Assembly: GCA_023954495.1 (NCBI GenBank)
Contig: JAMLIA010000029.1
Location: 1-35,241, forward strand
Reading direction: 5' to 3'
From: Thermomicrobiales bacterium
GTDB lineage: Bacteria; Chloroflexota; Chloroflexia; Thermomicrobiales; CFX8
Length of the DNA: 35,241 nt
In this document: piece after piece, positions 10,781 through 22,800 of the stretch
Position numbering within the stretch: the stretch's first letter is position 1
Layout of the letters: the number at the start of each line of letters is the position of its first letter
Position numbers and translations under genes: made by a program
The notes under the pieces: model-generated
The model's input: only the letters and a program-made list of their open reading frames with translations
What the model was told of the DNA's origin: nothing
Databases searched by the model: none

Positions 10781-12029
10781 TCACGCGGCTGGATAGCTCG
10801 AATAATACCGCGCCTGCCGCAGGCCGTCGATCAGGCGGTCCACGTCGTCGTGGGTGTTATACACGGAGAAGCTGGCACGCGCCGTTGCGTCCAGGCCGAA
10901 TCGGGCGTGGAGCGGCTGCGTGCAGTGATGGCCCGCGCGGATACAGACGCCGTCCTCATCGAGAATCGACGCAACGTCGTGCGGGTGAATGCCGGTCATG
11001 CTGAAGCTCAACGCGCCGCTACGCTGCTCGGGCGGCGGGCCCCAGATGGTGAGGTCCGGAAGCTCAAGCAGCTGTCCAGGCGTAGGCGATCAGCTCGTGC
11101 TCGTGCGCCTCCACCGCGCCATGCCGGATGTCGACGATGTAGTTGCAGGCGGCGCCGAAGCCGAACGCGTCGGCGACGCTGGGCGTGCCGGCCTCGAACT
11201 TCGACGGCAGATCAGCCCAGGTCGACTCGCGCAGACCGACGACGCGGATCATGTCGCCACCACCCAGGAATGGCGGCATCGCCTCCAGCAGCTCGCGCCG
11301 ACCGTAGAGCAGGCCGGACCCCATCGGACCGAACATCTTGTGGCCCGAGGCGGCGTAGAAATCTACACCCAGCTCAGCGAGGTTCACACCGACGTGCGGC
11401 GCTGCCTGCGCGCCATCGAGGAGCACGAGTGCGCCGTAGTCGTGCGCCCGCGCGATGATCTGCTCGATCGTGGATTGATCGTGCCCAGTATGCTCGACAC
11501 GTGGCAGACCACGAGGCGGTTCCGCCGCTGGCCAGGGTGTCGGTCCAGATCTTCCAGTCGCAGCAGACCGTTGTCGTCTACGTGGATGAACTCCAGCGTC
11601 GCGCCGGTGCGCGCGGCGACAAGCTGCCAGGGCACGAGGTTGGAGTGATGCTCCATCTCGCTCAGGACGACAACGTCACCGGAGCGCAGGTTGGCGTCAC
11701 CCCAGGTGCGCGCAACGAGGTTGATCGCCTCGGTGGTGTTGCGAACGAAGATGATCTCGTCGGTCGAACCAACGCCGAACAGGCGCGCCACCTGGTGGCG
11801 TGCCTCGTCATACGCCTCGGGTCGAGCGTTCGGCCAGCGCGTAGACGCCGCGGCTTTGGACGTTGGCGTTGTCGTGGCGGTAGTAGCTGTCCATCGCCTG
11901 CAGCACAGCCTCGGGCTTTTGCGACGATGCGGCACTGTCGAGATAGACGAGATGGGGATCGTTCAGGATCGGAAACTGTCGGCGGAGCGCGACGGCGTCG
12001 AGCGCCGACTCAGGGGTGGTTGCGCTCAC
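10781..12029 (-). pseudogene. sufS: SufS cysteine desulfurase, broken by about three apparent frameshifts
   Basis: The gene begins at a GTG (12029) with AGGAGG six bases upstream. It is recognisable end to end across three frames: LRRQFPILNDPHLVYLDSAASSQKP, then EAYDEARHQVARLFG, then LLDGAQAAPH and the PLP-lysine site SGHKMFGP, then the active-site cysteine in RAGHHCTQP. Frame changes are needed near 11820 (an extra base in a GGG run), 11472 (a missing base) and 11080 (one extra or two missing bases). Restored, the length is about 415 residues, normal for group II SufS/NifS-type desulfurases that take sulfur from cysteine and pass it to SufU. All key residues survive, which favours sequence error over decay, but as given no full-length product can be made. 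Confidence 0.85.
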
Positions 12030-12135: not shown

Positions 12136-13471
12136 CTAGACCATGTAGCCGATCTTACGGTCGATCGTTCCCGCACAGTCTTCTGTACGGATTCGACCGG
12201 CACACGCTCGATCACCTCGTCAAAGAAGCCATCAACGATCAGCTTCCGCCTCGGTGCGAGAGATACCGCGGCTCATCAGATAGAAGACGTACTCTTCCTC
12301 GATCTGAGCGATCGTCGCGCCGTGCGTACAACGCACATCGTTCGCGCCAATCTCCAGGTTCGGGATCGAGTCGGCCCGCGCCGTCGGGGACAGGATCAGG
12401 TTGCGGTTTGCCTGATAGGCGTCGGTGCCATGCGCTTACAGACTCGATGACGCCGGAATAGACCGACCGCGAGCGATCTCTGATCGCGCCTTGAACAGCA
12501 GGTCGCTCGATGCGTACGGCGACTCGTGATTCTGGCGGGTCTGGTTGTCGAAGTGGTTGGTGTCGGCGAAGTAAAGACCAAGCATCTCAGCCGACGAGCC
12601 GGCCTCGACCAGGTTAGATGCAATCAGCGTCTTCGACATCCGCGCGCCGAGCGAAACGTTCAGCGAGCGAACGGCGGCGTCCTGATGGATGACACCCTTC
12701 TGCGTCGAGAAGTTCCAGGTGTGGCGACCCCAGTCCTGCACCTGAATGTAGCGCACCTGCGCGCCCTCAGCAGCGTGGACCTCAACGACACTGTCGGCGA
12801 TTGATTCTTCGTCCTGCGTCTCCGAGTCGAAGTCAACGAGCGTCACGTCGGCGTTTTCTTCAGCCACGATCAGGATGTGGTTGAACGTCGCGATGCCGGC
12901 AGCTTCCTGAACCGAGAAAACCCGGAATGGCAGATCGACCTCGACGTCCTGCGGGACGAAGCAGGACAAACGCCGTTGAAGTCCAGAATGCACCGTGCAG
13001 CGCAGCGAACTTGTTGTCCGTCACCGGCACGGTCGCGTCGCTCATGAAGTACTTCTGCAGCAGCTCGGGGTGTTCGCGGACAGCCGTCTCCAGATCAGAG
13101 AAGACGACGCCCTGCTCGGCCAGCGCCGAATCGACCTCGAAGTAGATGATCGACGAATCGCGCTGGACGACGACGCCCGAAACCTCGCCGGCCGCCTCCA
13201 CCTCAGCCGCGACGGCAGCTGGCAGATCGGCACGACTCGTCAGCCGGTCCGCCTGATCGGCGAACGGCAGAACCTCATCGATCGGCAGCAGGCGCAAGTC
13301 GGTACGCCGCCACTCCTCGTCGGTCCGCTTCGGCATCGGGATCTGCTCGAACGCTTCCCACGCCTCAATGCGCTTCTGGCGCAGCCAGTCCGGTTCCTGT
13401 CGGCGGTGCGACAGCTCGTCCACCGCCTCGCGCGAGAACCCCTTCGTCGCGCCCTGAATAGTCGTTGACAT
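12136..13471 (-). pseudogene. sufD: SufD Fe-S assembly protein, broken by about five apparent frameshifts
   Basis: The ATG at 13471 follows GGGAG. The N-terminal part reads as SufD to FAALHGAFWTSTAFV, then shifts near 12970. The next frame gives VPQDVEVDLPFRVFS through SLNVSLGARMSKTL to SSDLLFK. Further shifts near 12490, 12435, 12248 and 12165 are needed to read SRSVYSGVIES, TDAYQANRNLILSPTARADSIPNLEIGANDVRCTHGA, LIVDGFFDEVIERVP and the terminal IDRKIGYMV before TAG. Restored, it would be about 445 residues, the normal size. SufD joins SufB and SufC in the cluster-building complex. Several of the shifts fall in short runs of identical bases. As written the gene is inactive; sequence error is at least as likely as true decay. 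Confidence 0.85.
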
Positions 13472-13566: not shown

Positions 13567-14962
13567 CTATCCGACGGACCCTTCCATCTCAAGCTGGATG
13601 AGGCGGTTCAGCTCGACGGCATATTCGAGCGGCAGCTCTCAAGGATTGGTCACCGAAGCTGCTGACGATCATGCTCATCGCGTCGGACTCAGAGATACCG
13701 CGCGACCGCAGATAGAACAGCTGCTCTTCGCCGATTTTAGAGACGGAAGCCTCATGGCCGACGCTGACGTCATCTTCCTCAATTTCAATATACGGATAGG
13801 TGTCCGAGCGGCTGGCTTCATCCAGCAGCAGCGCGTCGCAAACCACGTTGCTTTTGCTGTGGTGCGCACCCTTGCCTACCTTGAGCAGACCGCGGTAGCT
13901 GGCGCGGCCGCCGTCCTTGGAAATGGACTTGGAGACGATTTTGGAGCGGGTATAAGGCGCCCCGTGGACAACCTTGCCGCCCGCGTCCTGGTGCTGGCCG
14001 TCGGTCGACATCGCCACCGAGAGAATCTCGCCGCGAGCGCCCTCTTCCATCAGCCAGACAGCCGGGTACTTCATCGTGATCTTGGAGCCGAGGTTGCCAT
14101 CAACCCACTCCATCGTCGCGTTCTTGTAGGCGGCGGCACGCTTCGTCACGAGGTTGTAGACGTTCTTCGACCAGTTCTGAATGGTCGTGTAGCGGCAGCG
14201 CGCGCCTTCCTTGATGACGATTTCGACGACTGCCGAGTGCAGCGAGTTCGACGAATAGGTCGGTGCGGTGCAACCCTCGACGTAGTGGACGTAGGAGTCC
14301 TTCTCGCAGATGATCAGCGTCCGCTCGAACTGCCCCATGTTCTCGGCGTTGATGCGGAAGTACGCCTGCAGCGGCACCTCAACGCGAACGCCCTCGGGGA
14401 TGTAAACGAACGATCCACCCGACCAGACCGCCGAGTTCAGCGCGGCGAACTTGTTGTCGTTGGGCGGAATGATCGTGCCGAAGTACTGCTTGACCAGTTC
14501 CGGGTACTCGCGCACGCCGGCGTCCATGTCGAGGAAGATGACACCCATCTTCTGGAGGTCCTCACGCAGCGAGTGGTAGACGACCTCGGACTCGTACTGC
14601 GCGCCGACACCGGCGAGGAACTTCCGTTCGGCTTCTGGGATACCGAGCTTCTCGAACGTGTCCTTGATGTACTCCGGAACCTCGTCCCAGGACTTGCTGG
14701 CCTTCTCGGTCGGCCGGATGTAGTAGTAGATGTCCTCGAAGTCCATGTCGGAGAGATCGGCTCCCCAGGTCGGAACCGGTCGCTTCTTGAAGTAGTCGTA
14801 TGCCTTCAGCCGGAACTCGCGCATCCACTCAGGCTCGCCCTTCATCTCGGAGATGGCGGCGACCTTTTCGGGATCGATTCCCTTCTCGGCCTTAAAAACG
14901 TAGTCTTCTTCGTCGCGGAATCCGTACTTGTACTGTCCGAATTCCAGCTCGGATACTGACAT
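13567..14962 (-). pseudogene. sufB: SufB Fe-S cluster assembly scaffold, frameshifted near its C-terminus
   Basis: The true start is the ATG at 14962 with AAGGAGG five bases upstream; the open frame reaches further but the extra residues are not SufB-like. About 430 residues read cleanly as SufB: GFRDEEDYVFKAEKG, YYIRPTEKASKSWDEVP, EGCTAPTYSSNSLHSAVVEI and SRGISESDAMSMIVS. Near 13640 one extra (or two missing) base moves the frame. The normal end, ELPLEYAVELNRLIQLEMEG, follows in the next frame up to a TAG at 13567. As written the protein would end about 22 residues later in foreign sequence (stop at 13589). SufB is the core of the SufBC2D scaffold. The break affects only the last helix region, so partial function cannot be excluded. 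Confidence 0.88.
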
Positions 14963-15005
14963 CAGCGCCTCCTTGCGCAGTGCTGGACGGCAAGTAGAGC
15001 GGCCG

Positions 15006-15803
15006 TTAAGCCGTCGCAAGCTCCGGCACGTACTTGGCCATGAACTTGTCGTAGCCGAGATCCTCAAGCTCCGACGCCAGCTCGGGGCCGCCTGACTTGA
15101 CGATGCGTCCCTCAGCCATGATGTGGACGAAATTCGGCTTGATGTAGTTGAGCAATCGCTGGTAGTGCGTGATCACCAGCATCGCCATGTTGTCGGTGAA
15201 CAGCGCGTTCACGCCGTCCGACACGGTGCGAAGCGCATCAATGTCGAGGCCCGAGTCGGTCTCGTCCATGATGCAGAACTCCGGCTCAAGCATCGCCATC
15301 TGCAAAATCTCGGCGCGCTTCTTCTCACCACCGGAGAAGCCTTCGTTCAAGTAGCGGTTCGCGAAGGACTCATCGACCTTCAGCAGCGCCATCTTCTCGC
15401 GGAGCGTGCGGCGGAATTCGCGCGGGGTGAACGGAGCGACATCCTCGCCCTCGTCGGCGCGGCGCTGGCGACGCGAGTTCGCGGCCATACGCAGGAAGTT
15501 CGCCATCGAGACGCCCGGGATCGAGGTCGGGTACTGGAAGGCGAGGAACAAGCCGAGCTGTGCGCGCTCGTCCGGCCCCATCTCCAGGATGTTCTCACCC
15601 TTGTAGAGAACCGCGCCCTCGGTAACCTCGTAGTTCGGGTGGCCGGCGACGGCATACGCCAACGTGCTCTTGCCGGAACCGTTCTTGCCCATCAGCGCAT
15701 GAATCTCGCCGCGCTGGATGGTCAGATCAACGCCACGCAGAATCTCCTGGCCCTCAATGCCGGCGTGGAGATTCTGAATCTGAAACAGTGGGGTATCGCT
15801 CAT
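15006..15803 (-). CDS. sufC: SufC Fe-S cluster assembly ATPase
   Basis: A 265-residue ABC-type ATPase that powers the SufBCD scaffold. Walker A is GKNGSGKST at residues 39-47, the ABC signature SGGEKKR at 157-163, and Walker B CIMDE at 177-181 within the SufC hallmark [12 protein letters not shown]. The C-terminal [11 protein letters not shown] is also typical. The start is taken at the ATG at 15803; a GTG seven codons earlier (15824) is in frame but has no better ribosome binding site, and a GGAGGG lies 13-14 bases before the ATG. It is the first suf gene, intact, and 43 bp ahead of sufB. Its promoter probably lies in the 102-bp gap to fur. Confidence 0.95.
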
Positions 15804-15864
15804 AATCTGGCTTGCGCCCTCCACAAGGTATCGACTTTCCGACGCCCGTCCTTCGCGCGCCGTC

Positions 15865-15905: not shown

Positions 15906-16337
15906 TTAACTCTGGGACTCAACCGTCGACTGACACACCGGACAGACACCGGAGAAAACGGTCTGGTGCCCAGAGATGTCGTAACCGGTCTGCTCGGCAG
16001 CCACCTGCTGGGCGAGCAGCGCAGTCGGAACGTCGACATCAACCAGCGTGCCGCAGACGAGGCAGTGCACGTGATCATGCCGGTCGACGCGCTTATCGAA
16101 GCGGCTGGCCTGATCGCCAAAGGGGAACTCAAGGATGAGCCCGCGCTCGGCGAAGAGATGCAACGTGCGATACACCGTGCCGTATGCGATCGTCGGATAC
16201 TTCCGGTGCACGCGCTCGAAGATCTCGCCGGCAGTCAGGTGCCCCGTCGCCGAACGGACCTCCTCCAGAATCGCCGCGCGCTGCGGCGTCATCCGAAAAT
16301 CTACCTGCTCACAAAAGAGCTCAGCCCGCTCCGCCAT
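15906..16337 (-). CDS. Fur/PerR-family metal-dependent transcriptional regulator
   Basis: A 143-residue regulator with an N-terminal winged helix (MTPQRAAILEEV and the recognition region TIAYGTVYRTLHLFAERGLI) and a C-terminal dimerisation domain. Structural zinc ligands are Cys92 and Cys95 (CLVC) and Cys132 and Cys135 (CPVC). His33, the RHDHVH cluster (His87/89/91) and His124 are candidates for the sensing metal site. Whether it senses iron, peroxide or zinc cannot be settled; the adjacent suf operon favours iron or oxidative stress. It lies immediately upstream of sufC in the same direction, so it may also feed the operon by read-through. Two tandem 16-bp repeats directly precede its ATG and overlap its purine-rich ribosome binding region, suggesting self-repression. 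Confidence 0.9.
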   Translation of the reverse strand: MAERAELFCEQVDFRMTPQRAAILEEVRSATGHLTAGEIFERVHRKYPTIAYGTVYRTLHLFAERGLILEFPFGDQASRFDKRVDRHDHVHCLVCGTLVDVDVPTALLAQQVAAEQTGYDISGHQTVFSGVCPVCQSTVESQS

Positions 16338-16370
16338 AGTTGCGAATCACTCCCAGTTGAGAATCACTCC
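16338..16370 (-). promoter_or_regulatory. Tandem 16-bp direct repeats in front of fur (candidate Fur-family operator)
   Basis: Read on the minus strand, GGAGTGATTCTCAACT (16370 to 16355) and GGAGTGATTCGCAACT (16353 to 16338) differ at one base and have a 17-base period. The second copy ends directly at the fur ATG. Binding here would cover both the leader and the ribosome binding site. Assignment as an autoregulatory operator is inference from position and repetition. Confidence 0.55.
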
Positions 16371-16719
16371 TAGATGTCCACCGAAACCATAGCAATTTCA
16401 TCGGCATTGGTCAAGATTTGGAGCCGCGGGCCGTCCAGGCTTATGCCCCAGCCGTCGCGCGGGGCCGACGACCTCCGATTCCAGGCTGATCATGCAGTAC
16501 TGCACCAAGCGCTTGGTCATGCCCCTGCGCGACAGCGCGATGACCGCTGATCCAGCAGCAAGCCGTCGGCCCGGCATTGGCGCTGCAACTCCTGTCACGC
16601 CGCGAGGGTCGCTTCGCTTTCGAGACCGATTTCGCCATGACCGCCCACTCGTCGCTATAATCGCGCCAGTATCACCCCAATCTCGCATCCGATCCGTACC
16701 CGTGCAGAGGCGTGGGAGC
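16371..16719. other. Non-coding gap between fur and the LuxR-type regulator gene
   Basis: About 350 bp between divergent genes. The plus frame is open from 16492 but the translation before 16720 looks like nothing known and lacks a ribosome binding site. A consensus TATAAT at 16656-16661 with a poor -35 (TTCGCC at 16631, 19-base spacer) is the best promoter candidate for the LuxR-type gene; it would start transcription about 50 bp before the ATG. No terminator or RNA gene was found. Confidence 0.5.
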
Positions 16720-19638
16720 ATGGCACGCACGAGCCGTCCCCAATCGGTGTCCATCGTCGGTCGCGACCGCGAACAGGCGCTCCTCGCCGCGCACCTCGCC
16801 GACGCGCGAGTCGGCGGGGGGTCGCTGGTCCTCATCGGCGGCGAGGCGGGAATTGGCAAGACGGCACTTGTGCGCGCCCTCGGAGCCGCGGCTGCCGCCG
16901 AGGGCTGGCTCGTGCTGACCGGCACCTGCTACGACTCCGGCACGAGACCTCCCTATGGCCCCTGGTCCGAAGTGGCCGGTGGAGCGCAGCGACGCGGCGA
17001 TTTGCCCGACGTCCCACCGCTGTTGCGCGATCGCGAACTCCTGGCGCGGGCACCCAGTCCCGACATCGTCATTTCCGAGCTGGATGCCTGGCTGGCGGAG
17101 CTCGTCGAGCGTGGTCCACTGCTGCTGATTGTTGAGGATCTCCATTGGGCCGATCCGGAGTCGCTAGCCTTCCTGCGTTCCATCGCGCGCCGGGTCGGCG
17201 AGTGGCCGCTCATGCTGATCGCAACCTACCGGGCTGACGAGCTCGTGCTCAACCCGGCGCTCGACCAACTCCTGCCGCACCTCGTGCGTGAGTCGAACGC
17301 CCACCGCATTCGCCTGCTCCCGCTTGACGTACCGGGCATCCAGGAGCTTGTTGCGGTTCGCTATGCCTTGCCGGACGACGACATTGCCCGATTGGCCAAG
17401 CACCTCGGCAACCGAAGCCAGGGCATCCCCCTGTACCTGCTGGAACTCCTGCGGTCTCTGGAGGAGGAGGGGCGCCTGCGTCGCACGCAGAACGGCTGGA
17501 CGCTCGGCGAGATCGAGATGAGCCGCGTTCCGGCGCTGGTTCGGCAAGTGATCAATGGGCGCATCGCGCGTCTCGGCCCCGATACCAGGCGACTCCTGGA
17601 GCTCGGCGCGGTGATCGGACAGGATATCCCCTTGCTGTTGTGGCGGCGGGTCAGCAGCACGAGCGGGGAGCAGTTTGATGAGGCAATCGAGCGCGCCCTG
17701 GAAACGCAGCTGCTTGAAGAAGCACCGTCAGGGTTATCCCTGCGCTTCACCCACGCACTGGTTCGTGAAACGCTGTATGAGGGACTCTCGTTGCCGCGCC
17801 GCCAGTCCTGTCACCGGCAGGTGGCTGAAGCCCTCGTTACGGAGGCGGGAGCGGAGCCGGAAACGATCGCGCATCACTTCCGCCAGGCGCTCGATTCGCG
17901 TGCCGTCGACTGGTTTATCCAGGCCGGCAGGCGGGCCGAACGGGTTGCCTGGCTGACGGCCGCCAGTCACTTTGAAGCGGCACTCGCGATGATGACTGCT
18001 GATTCAGATCCCGGCGACCGCGGGTGGCTCCTCTTCCGCCGCGCGAAGTTGCTGCGGAGCGCCCAGCCGCGCACATCGCTTGCCATTCTGGATGCGGTTT
18101 AAGTACTCGCTGTCGAAGCCCAGGATGCGCTGCTCCAGGCATACGTGACGGTCTACCGGGGGGAGATCCGCTGTACAGTCGGCGAGGTACGGATGGGATT
18201 AGGCGACCTTGATACGAGCGTCGCTCAACTCGCCCACCTGAACCCCGCTGATCTGCAGCGTCTGGGCGAACTTGAGCGTCAGCGGATCGTTTTGAGTCGC
18301 TCCGACGTCGCCGGACTGCTGTCATCAACGCTGGCATTTGTCGGCCGCATCGACGAGGCACTCGAGCAGGCCGACGCCATCATCGAACGCGCGGACGACG
18401 TTCCGATGCTCGCCTGGTGGGCACGCGCCATCGCGCTCGCGCTCGCGGGCAAGGACGACGAGGCACGCGAGGCATTCGCAGTCTGCTGTGATGAGATGCG
18501 TCGTGTGTCGGCTGACGCAGCCGTTGCTATCCTGCTGTTGCAACAACTCTCTTTTATCCAGATTCCATACGGTGCGGACAACCTGGCCGAACGGCGGCGG
18601 ATTGCTGCTGCGGGAGAAGCCGCTTGGCGCGTGTCCAGTGGTGCGCACGACAACGTCCCCCCGCACATCGCCTGGTTACCGCTCCTGCAGATCGAGGGAG
18701 ACTGGTCGACGGCGCGCGAGTTGGCCCTGAGTGGTGTCCAGCTGGCGGATCAGACCTCAGAGAAGCATCTCGCCTCCACCGTCGTCCTTGCCCAGGTAGC
18801 TCAGGCACAAGGTGATGTGCCGTCAGCCTGGGAGTATGTGAATGCGCTGCTGCGGGGCGGTCCACAGACGCTTCCAGGGTATGTCGACCTCGCGCCGAGT
18901 CTCGCTCTGCTTCGAGTTGCCGTGGCGCTGTGTCTCGATCGCGACGACCTGACCGCCGCCCGTGCCTGGCTCGACGCGCACGACCGGTGGCTGCACTGGA
19001 GCGGAGCGATACTTGGCCGCGCCGATGGAGAGTGCGCCTGGACGCGATATTGTCTTGCAACTGGGGACATCGGGCGGGCACGTCAACACGCGGAACAGGC
19101 GCTGGCGTTGGCGAGCGAGCCGCGTCAACCGCTCGCATTGCTGGCCGCGCATCGCCTTCTCGGCGCGATCGAGGCTCACGCAGGCCGACTCGTCGACGCC
19201 CGCCAGCATCTTGACACAGCGCTGGCGCTGGCGGATGCCTGCGCGGCACCGTACGAGCGGGCCCTCACGCTCCTTGCCTGTGCGGACCTCTTCCTCCGCG
19301 CCGGAGACATCGACGAGGCTGCTGCGGCGCTGGATGAGGCGCGGGCAATCTGCTCTGCGCTGGCCGCTGCGCCCGCTCTGGCCCAGATCGAAGCGCTTGC
19401 GGCGCGACTCGCAGACCAGTCGCGTGCCATGCAGCGGACCGCGCGGGTCGGGTTGAGCCCGCGCGAGATCGAAGTGCTGAGACTGCTCGCCAGCGGTCGA
19501 ACCAATCGCGAGATCGCCGAAACAATGTTCCTCAGCGCGCGCACAGTCGAGCGCCACATCACGAACCTCTACGCCAAGATCGGTGCGCAGAACCGCGCTG
19601 AGGCGATCGCCTTCGCCCACGAGCACGCCCTCAACTAG
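16720..19638 (+). pseudogene. LAL-type LuxR-family regulator (AAA ATPase + TPR + HTH) interrupted by an in-frame TAA
   Basis: One continuous frame of 973 codons broken only by TAA at codon 461 (18100-18102). The start at 16720 follows AGAGG. The N-terminal half holds a nucleotide-binding domain: Walker A GGEAGIGKT at residues 40-48 and Walker B LLLIVEDLHWAD at 134-145. After the stop come helical repeats (many Ala-rich ADAALALA-type pairs) and, in the last 60 codons, a LuxR helix-turn-helix: LSPREIEVLRLLASGRTNREIAETMFLSARTVERH in overlapping motifs. This is the LAL/MalT-like signal-sensing activator architecture. A GAA-to-TAA change would explain the stop. The C-terminal half could still be translated from GTG at 18145, giving a 497-residue protein with the HTH but no ATPase. 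The neighbour downstream is the large secreted protein, a possible target. Confidence 0.82.
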
Positions 19639-19886: not shown

Positions 19887-22800
19887 ATGCAACGATGCTG
19901 GCGTCTACTGCTGATTTGTGTGCTCGTCGCTACCGGACTGGCCACGCTACCTGCCGCCCCAGCTGCCGCCGAGACCGGCGACGCCGTCGCCGGCGGCATC
20001 GTTAACGCCTGGGGCTACGACGTCTATGGCCAGACAACTCCGCCAGCAGGACTGGGCGATATCGTCGCGGTCGCGGCTGGCGGCTATCACTCTCTGGCAC
20101 TCACGACGGACGGCACCGTCACCGCCTGGGGGCGGAACAGCGAGGGCCAAACGGATGTGCCAGCGGACTTGCACAACGTCATCGCCATCGCCGCGGGTAG
20201 CTTCCACAGCGTGGCGCTCACGGCGGACGGTACTGTTGTCGCCTGGGGATTCGACGATCAGGGCCAAGCCATGGTGCCGGCAGGATTGACCAATGTCATC
20301 GCGATCGCTGCGGGCAACAGCTTCACCGTCGCAGTCACCGCGGATGGCAACGTCACTGCCTGGGGTCGGAACATTGAGGGCCAGACCACGGTGCCAGCCG
20401 GGTTGAGCAACGTCATCGCCATTGCTGCGGGCTCTTCGCACACCGTGGCGCTCAAGACGGATGGCACCGTTGTCGCCTGGGGAGAGAACGACTTTGGCCA
20501 GACGGATGTGCCAGCGGGATTGAGCAACGTCGTGGCGATTGCTGCAGGCTTCTCGCACACCGTGGCGCTCAAGGGGGATGGCACGATCACCGCCTGGGGA
20601 GATGACGCTCAAGGCCAGACGACGGTGCCGACGGGGCTGAACGATGTCGTGGCGATTGCTGCGGGCTTTTCACACACCGTGGCGCTCACGGCGGATGGCA
20701 CCGTCTTCGCCTGGGGAAATGATAATGGCGGCCAGGCATCGGTCCCGTTCGGGTTAAGCAACGTCATTGCTATCGCCGCAGGCGCCTACCACACGGTGGT
20801 GGTCAGAAAAGCGGGCCTCGTCACCACCTGGGGATCGAACGATGAAGGCCAGGGATCGGTTCCGGCGGGCCTGGACGACATCGTCGCAGTATCCGCAGGT
20901 GCCTACCACACCGTGGCACTGCACGGAGACGGCACAGTCACTGCCTGGGGATCCAACGCGCAAGGCCAGACCGATGTGCCACCAGGATTGAGCAACGTCA
21001 GGGCTATCGCCGCAGGTGGCTTCCATACGCTCGCGCTGCACGGGGACGGCACCGTCAGCGCCTGGGGCTGGAACCATTTCGGCCAGACGGATGTGCCGGC
21101 GGGATTGAGCAACGTCATCGCCATCGCCGCCGGTGCCAACCACAGCGTCGTCCTTACGGCGGACGGCATCGTCACCGATTGGGGAGCGAACTTCTCCCAT
21201 CAGACGGATGGGAACGACTCGCTGAGGAACATCGTGGCCATCGCCGCTGGCACCAACCACACGCTGGTGCTCAGGTCAGACGGCGAGGTCGCTGCCTGGG
21301 GGAACAACAGCTCCGGCCAGACGGATGTGCCGGCGGACTTGCACAACGTCGTCGCCATCGCCGCGGGGCTCAACCACAGCGTGGCGATCACGGCGGACGG
21401 TACTGTTGTCGCCTGGGGCGATAACGCTCAAGGCCAGACGGCGGTGCCGGCGAGCTTGCGCGATGTCGTGGCCATCGCAGCGGGCGACAACCATACGTTG
21501 GCGCTCAGGATGGACGGCACCGTCATCGGCTGGGGGCGGAGCAACGAGGGCCAGACGGCTGTTCCGGTCGGGCTGAGCGACGTGGTGAGCATCGCCGCTG
21601 GTGCCAACCACAGCGTGGCGCTGCATCTCTTCACCACACCGCCGAATCGTGCTCCGACAGCGCTAACCCTGAGCCTGAGCAGTGCGGCCGAGAACAGCGC
21701 GATCGGAACCAGTGTCGGCACGTTTACAACGACCGATCCTGATACGGGCGACAAGCACGGCTACAGCTTGGTGGCCGGCGAGGGCGATACCGACAACGCC
21801 GCTTTCACCATCAGCGGAGACACGCTGCAAACGGCGACGGTCTTCGACTTCGAGAGCCAGAGTAGCTATAGCATCCGCGTGCGAACGACTGACATCGGAG
21901 AGCTCATCTTCGAGGCGATGCTCACCATCACCGTCACCGATGTCAACGACGCGCCGATCGCGGCCGATGACAGGTACACGACTGCCGTGGACACGGCGCT
22001 GACGGTACCCGCACCCGGCATGCTCGGCAACGACACCGATCCTGACGGCGACTCCCTGTCCATCATCCCTGGCGGTGGACCGTTCAATGGCAACATCGTG
22101 TCGAATCCGAACGGCTCGTTCACCTATACGCCCAATCCGGGGTTCAGAGGTACTGACACATTTCACCTATCAGGCTAACGACGGCAACGCGACCCCGAAT
22201 GTTGCCACCGGTCACAATCACGGTGTCGTCCGCCAGCGACATCCTGGTCGCCACGGACGACACCTACAGCACGGACGAGGAGCGCCGTCGATCGCCACAC
22301 CCGGCGTGCTGGATAACGACAGCATTGGCGACGGCCTGACAGTCACCGCAATCGTCGTTGACTCGCCGCAACACGGCACGCTGTCGTTGAATCCGGACGG
22401 CTCCTTCACCTACACGCCGAACGCCGATGCCAACGGCAGCGACAGCTTCACCTACCAGGCGACCGACGGCACGGCGACATCGAACGTCGCGACCGTTGCG
22501 CTCACGGTCAACCCGATCAACGACGCGCCGGCAGCGGTCGGCGATGCGTACGTCACCGACGAGAACACGGCGCTGACCGTGGCCGCCCCCGGTCTGCTTA
22601 TCAACGACACCGACATCGACGGCGATACGCTCAGCACCGCGCTGGTACTCGATCCGTCCAGCGGCTCACTGACACTCAACGCCGATGGCTCGTTCAGCTA
22701 TACGCCCAACCCGGGTTTCAGCGGTTCTGACAGCTTCACCTACCGCGCTGAAGACGGCATCGTGGGATCAAACGTCGCTACCGTCACTATCACGGTGCTG

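Follow-up and report, generated by a model that had tools for sequence, protein, structure and literature searches.

A conserved tandem pair of Fur/PerR-type boxes precedes a PerR-type regulator gene at the head of a suf operon in Thermomicrobiales

For the window, the whole stretch of 35,241 nucleotides of Thermomicrobiales DNA analysed here, we identified two operator-like boxes in tandem immediately upstream of a gene for a Fur-family regulator with a PerR-type ligand set. Judged from sequence, this element is a real, conserved and lineage-specific tandem feature of operator-like character; it is of a known kind and occupies an unusual location, in front of a PerR-type gene heading suf genes. 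The boxes, their spacing, conservation and position, the operon, further sites in related genomes and the ligand residues of the protein were all computed, and they point to what we consider the probable explanation, namely that a PerR-type repressor of Fe-S assembly regulates its own gene through a tandem operator.

The two boxes are visible in the DNA as a direct repeat. On the minus strand this region reads GGAGTGATTCTCAACT-G-GGAGTGATTCGCAACT-ATG, where the two 16-mer copies (16355–16370 and 16338–16353) have a period of 17, differ by one mismatch and abut the start codon (16337–16335). Taken as two 17-bp units (16338..16371, minus strand; units 16338–16354 and 16355–16371), the repeat contains two mismatches over the full unit. 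The coordinates, period, single mismatch and contact with the ATG described in a sequence-only reading of this DNA were all reproduced, and its assignment of the gene to fur agrees with a Pfam FUR match (E 1.4e-25). The TRF score of 59 placed the repeat third among 16 rows in the window. Its rarity was assessed by simulating the window 100 times with a first-order Markov model and counting adjacent repeats of period 12–40 with at least 15/17 identity. The simulated windows contained a mean of 0.15 such repeats per 35 kb (maximum 1), and none at period 17; the real window contains three, with the longest unit in the fur-upstream one. The repeat is short and has just two copies, as a chance repeat without function might, but its rarity in the simulations and its conservation in relatives leave that explanation a negligible probability.

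Each 17-bp unit is itself a degenerate inverted-repeat Fur/PerR box of the 7-1-7 type, with 11 of its 14 positions agreeing with TGAGAATnATTCTCA; the chance of at least 11/14 at one position is ~4.5e-5. Upstream of the gene, the minus strand can be written as TAGGAGTGATTCTCA-ac-TGGGAGTGATTCGCA-act-ATG, with the box centres 17 bp apart. Box 1 (TAGGAGTGATTCTCA; 16358..16372, minus strand; 11/14) aligns with boxes scoring 10–14/14 in 18 relatives of the family designated f4, and box 2 (TGGGAGTGATTCGCA; 16341..16355, minus strand; 11/14) follows exactly 17 bp after it. The hallmark of Fur/PerR operators, a 7-1-7 inverted repeat near a promoter, was found here as two degenerate 11/14 boxes. In the window's own genome, 39 sites showed at most three mismatches to the box (both window boxes counted), compared with 8 for the reversed pattern. 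The sequence-only reading had contrasted the direct repeat with the usual inverted repeat of Fur sites. This contrast was not supported: as both units are imperfect inverted repeats themselves, the visible direct repeat amounts to two ordinary boxes in tandem.

A consensus scan of a 501-base region returned two promoter-like sites against 0.1 expected. The –35 hexamer TTGACC (16409..16414, minus strand), whose position is kept in relatives from the window's own family (f1) and from f4, is separated by a 17-nt spacer from the –10 hexamer TATGGT (16386..16391, minus strand), which has a TG in front. Together these hexamers would form a sigma70-like promoter spanning 16414–16386, with a predicted transcription start near 16379. 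Relative to this start, box 1 would cover approximately +8 to +22 and box 2 approximately +25 to +39, with the ATG at about +43; both boxes are downstream of the –10 hexamer and clear of the promoter core. The GGGAG at the left end of box 2 (16350–16354), 12 nt before the ATG, likely serves as the Shine-Dalgarno sequence, and the earlier proposal that the fur gene has an operator-like element overlapping the ribosome-binding region is upheld to the extent that box 2 overlaps this likely site. The accompanying proposal, that binding would block both transcription and ribosome access, stands for transcription of that stretch but not for ribosomes, since binding to DNA is itself no block to ribosomes on the mRNA. 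Both units fall within the predicted leader and each contains GGAG, which would also suit an RNA element in the 5′ untranslated region, such as a hairpin, a riboswitch or a duplicated ribosome-binding site. The palindrome, however, also occurs before other genes, where its distance to the start codon varies; the fold z was 0.25, with 122 of 200 shuffles as good or better, and no Rfam match was obtained at gathering score. This candidate was rejected and we regard it as highly improbable.

The regulator (143 aa; 15906..16337, minus strand) was characterised by profile and alignment. Its FUR domain (PF01475, residues 13–125) scored above cut-off, and the best solved relative was Bacillus subtilis PerR (2fe3, E 2.7e-26). 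Residues H37, D85, H91, H93 and D104, the iron ligands of PerR, align in 2fe3 with H33, D81, H87, H89 and D100 of the window protein, which also has the Cys4 set for structural zinc (C92, C95, C132 and C135); that is, all Fe and Zn ligands of the B. subtilis protein align. Among the orthologues described below, the equivalents of H37, D85, H91 and H93 are kept in all 44, and the D104 equivalent and the four zinc cysteines in all 43 covered there. Asp at position 104 is the PerR state, whereas Fur has Glu; the three Fur alignments printed show Glu at this position and the window protein has Asp. Because the curated PerR models scored below cut-off (NF052545, 101 bits versus 180; NF047406, 88 versus 200), we limit the label to "PerR-type" and do not file the protein as PerR.

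The regulator gene is predicted to be the first of a fur-sufC-sufB operon. It is followed by sufC (15006..15824, minus strand; TIGR01978, above cut-off) and by the sufB ORF (13589..15067, minus strand; TIGR01980, above cut-off), inside which the true sufB start probably lies. Of the 44 orthologue loci, 29 have sufC next and in the same direction, 14 contain too little sequence and one (L093) is without it; sufC was present in 27 of 28 loci of the first locus set, the exception (L062) being from the same species. The sequence-only reading had missed both the PerR-type ligands and this position at the head of suf. A zinc-uptake (Zur) role was dropped, as the neighbours are suf genes. Further along, a sufD-like gene (12436–13471, minus strand) is distributed across two overlapping frames (N part 12860–13471, later part 12436–12993), and a sufS match (11384–11935) aligns with only a portion of its family model; these may reflect indels, whether from assembly or from real damage. 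On the other side, a divergent regulator (16492–19638, plus strand) also seems to be split into two ORFs (16492–18102 and 18145–19638): the first carries an AAA domain, the second TPR and LuxR-type GerE domains. The gene for an RCC1-repeat protein (19887–22178, plus strand) has a 117-bp DNA repeat array (~13 copies).

Searching 61 Thermomicrobiales genomes (E at most 1e-30) gave 44 with an orthologue of the regulator: 4 of 5 in f1, 18 of 21 in f4 (which includes Thermomicrobium, Thermalbibacter, Sphaerobacter and others, as judged from named loci whose upstream sequence is identical), 22 of 32 in f5 and none of 3 in f2/f3. One box of at least 10/14 lies upstream of the orthologue in 44/44. A second box at +17 bp (at least 8/14) was found in 4/4 promoters of f1, 16/18 of f4 and 3/22 of f5. 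In f4, box 1 is strong (10–14/14), whereas the sequence exactly 17 bp further on scores weakly (6–10/14). In f1, box 1 scores 9–11/14 and box 2 11–12/14; the box 1 of three loci (L028–L030) was placed by hand, 17 bp before the best-scoring box. Strength seems to shift between the sites while the pair is kept, with strong-weak in f4 and weak-strong or equal in f1. Averaged by genus, the f4 score at +17 is 8.8/14 versus 1.9–5.3 at 18 other offsets, whereas the f5 average at +17 (3.4) does not stand out; the f1 offset average (5.2) is not meaningful, as box 2 served as the anchor for three f1 sequences, which was corrected in the per-genome scores. The lineage-specific doubling suggested by the sequence-only reading is supported by this footprint, the pair being kept in the same genus (G003) and the same family (G002 and G004). 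The near-identical direct repeat was found only in the window's genus, where the two boxes appear to have converged and so become visible as a repeat. Because box 2 lies at exactly +17 in f4, where the repeat is not visible, the pair would be older than the window's genus. A strict two-box pattern searched in 400 genomes of the phylum matched the window's genome alone; this pattern was fitted to the window letters, fails on pair-bearing f4 genomes and is uninformative on spread.

These counts also bear on an explanation that we consider unlikely, in which one box is functional and the other is either a ribosome-binding site with a fortuitous likeness to a box or the product of a small tandem duplication in the window's genus. 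The remaining 19 of the 22 f5 promoters have one box, typically CGAGACTCATTCTCA, and none at +17; the three with a +17 box score 11 (G057), 10 (G059) and 8 (G039), two of them at least 10/14. Two f4 genomes fall below the 8/14 threshold at +17, with scores of 7 and 6. Within box 2, GGAG is one of the best-conserved segments in f1 and f4, the right half of box 2 is poor in Thermomicrobium (6–8/14), and the conservation of box 2 in f4 is partly due to the overlapping Shine-Dalgarno sequence. A slip duplication would likewise yield a 17-bp repeat. Against a single box, however, stand the f4 genomes with box 2 at exactly +17 and no visible repeat, and three f1 genomes in which box 2 is the better of the two (11–12/14 versus 9–10/14).

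The 17-bp pair also occurs away from start codons, before two other genes, which again argues against a single functional box. Sites differing from TGAGAATnATTCTCA by no more than one mismatch were present in 29 of the 61 genomes (fur-suf sites counted), and the reversed-pattern control gave 0. Sites outside fur-suf lie before a gene for a heavy-metal P1B-type ATPase in members of f1, f4 and f5, and before an Rrf2 gene in f4. The ATPase box of the window's own genome scores 13/14, the best of its 39 sites with at most three mismatches, and that of the sister species likewise scores 13/14; the protein passes the general P1B and Cd-type cut-offs, which do not establish the P1B4 subclass or iron efflux. 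Directly after a TATACA stretch and 112 nt ahead of the sole Rrf2 gene of this genome lies a box of 11/14, a weak site. Among the genes examined, boxes of at least 11/14 precede 11 of 31 for Rrf2 and 8 of 30 for the ATPase, versus 0.5% and 0.4% for 200 permuted palindromes. The genes examined were those with loci among 44 Rrf2 and 42 ATPase matches, within ~250 nt of the aligned start, a limit that misses a G034 ATPase box further upstream. No box of at least 11/14 was found at 13/13 f5 Rrf2 genes, at several f1 and f4 Rrf2 genes or at the 6/6 Thermomicrobium (genus g12) ATPase genes examined, and the regulon is patchy.

The pair at Rrf2 was identified in 9 of the 11 box-bearing promoters (two genera, g11 and g12; 8–9/14); ranked by genus average, +17 came first among 62 offsets. 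These promoters have the stretch TTGACGAATCCCGA in common with fur-suf, and their pairs may be copies of the fur-suf stretch. At the ATPase gene, the pair is strong (10–11/14) in four g9 genomes (of five) with a site found, whose promoter differs; it is weak (8/14) in g4 and g6 and absent from five other genera; over all genera, +17 was the third-best of 62 offsets, with a strong pair in one of eight (g9). These results support the 17-bp pair as a reused arrangement and not a general rule. Hydrophobic, probably membrane proteins, similar in two families (G017 and G045), also follow a box (L130 1501–1515, 14/14; L147 1258–1272, 13/14). A Pfam scan of the L130 protein (G017) gave no match, and we consider it a candidate new regulon member. 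Several other sites with at most one mismatch had no convincing gene nearby. Searching the own genome with the window unit gave 26 matches (both window units counted; 23 at two mismatches) versus 11 for the reversed unit, too weak for a regulon.

The same survey is relevant to whether the boxes bind another Fur-family paralogue, making this cross-regulation instead of autoregulation. The window's genome (G000) has three Fur-family genes, and near-perfect boxes occur in genomes with no orthologue found (e.g., G007, G034, G036 and G038), several of which are incomplete. All 44 orthologues, however, have a box at their own promoter, and local autoregulation is usual in the Fur family. We judge cross-regulation to be quite unlikely.

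A further element, AATGCCGA (16401..16408, minus strand), also written AATCCCGA, lies between the –35 and –10 hexamers and may be one half of a further, Rrf2/IscR-like operator. Upstream of the box, AATnCCGA-type matches were found in 4/4 f1, 18/18 f4 and 13/22 f5 fur promoters and in 9/11 box-bearing Rrf2 promoters, but in 0/8 ATPase promoters, against ~4% expected per promoter. The distance from its CGA to the box is near-fixed in f1 and f4 (31–35 nt) and variable in f5 (22–58 nt). The IscR type-1 consensus is ATASYYGACTRWWWYAGTCRRSTAT. Its best 25-mer match in the window promoter was 16/25 (shuffle p 0.13, not significant). The register of the AATnCCGA element fits a type-1-like dyad in f4; matches at p of at most 0.05 were obtained in 1/4 f1, 14/18 f4 and 4/22 f5 fur promoters, 1/11 Rrf2 promoters and 0/8 ATPase promoters. 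A clear dyad, ATATCCGAC-n6-AGTCGGATAT, is located nearby in one f5 promoter (G048); in this locus (L087), upstream of fur-suf, the palindrome ATATCCGACGAGATCAGTCGGATAT resembles an Rrf2/IscR site. The AATnCCGA element may represent a second, Rrf2-type operator.

For the favoured tandem autoregulatory operator, we infer from these features that the window's own paralogue binds and represses, which metal it carries, that it senses peroxide and that both boxes are occupied. The PerR-type repressor, the product of the first gene, would bind each 7-1-7 box as a metal-loaded dimer. At box 1 the dimer would straddle the downstream boundary of the open complex; with another dimer on box 2 the block would reach as far as the start codon, and transcription of fur-sufC-sufB would be stopped at promoter escape and early elongation. 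The dimers would be freed by peroxide oxidation or metal loss, so that Fe-S assembly and the regulator rise together, and the same box at the P1B-type metal ATPase and Rrf2 genes would add up to a small iron/Fe-S/peroxide regulon. In docking of the PerR homologue Slr1738, offsets of 14–16 bp were clash-free without contact and those of 18–21 bp gave dimer contact (PMC3293774). An offset of 17 bp is not named in the available part of that paper; occupancy of both boxes is plausible, and the dimers may or may not cooperate. A larger circuit, in which a PerR-type peroxide/iron sensor encoded within the suf operon controls suf, Rrf2 and a metal-efflux ATPase through 17-bp paired boxes, with box 2 doubling as a ribosome-binding site, strength shifting between boxes and Rrf2 feeding back on suf and itself through the CCGA element, is a possible but doubtful Thermomicrobiales-specific master circuit of Fe-S metabolism.

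Control of suf by SufR, IscR or Fur is known. In these systems a metal or Fe-S regulator tunes suf, as proposed here, whereas here the candidate, a PerR-type Fur protein, has its gene at the operon head. The box of B. subtilis PerR is TTATAATnATTATAA; the box here is TGAGAATnATTCTCA-like and the regulator heads a suf operon. Known Fur boxes and 7-1-7 operators, as far as the available parts of the sources describe them, share with this element an inverted-repeat core near a promoter and a Fur-family protein, but involve one dimer, or two on one shared box, whereas here two separate boxes lie 17 bp apart, one over the likely ribosome-binding site (PMC4506495; PMC3293774). The feoAB1 operator of M. 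gryphiswaldense (...CGCAACTCATTCGCA...) resembles the single f5 box CGAGACTCATTCTCA (PMC4506495, available part). Two tandem FUR boxes before one gene, as here, have been predicted in delta-proteobacteria; in the accessible text these precede psp and genY-related genes in another phylum, with the consensus WTGAAAATNATTTTCAW, in contrast to fur-suf here (PMC545781). P1B4 iron-efflux ATPases such as PfeT are described as Fur/PerR-controlled, and a P1B-type ATPase is common to PfeT systems and the predicted regulon, the P1B4 subclass not being established for the latter (PMC7762939, in part). An open-access literature search found no paper on fur-suf or on Fur/PerR boxes in the Thermomicrobiales lineage. 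The arrangement predicts a coupling of peroxide and iron sensing to Fe-S assembly in this little-studied lineage, via a regulator inside the suf operon, and its natural operator series (one box, strong-weak, weak-strong and equal pair) would serve to study the joint action of spaced Fur-family dimers.
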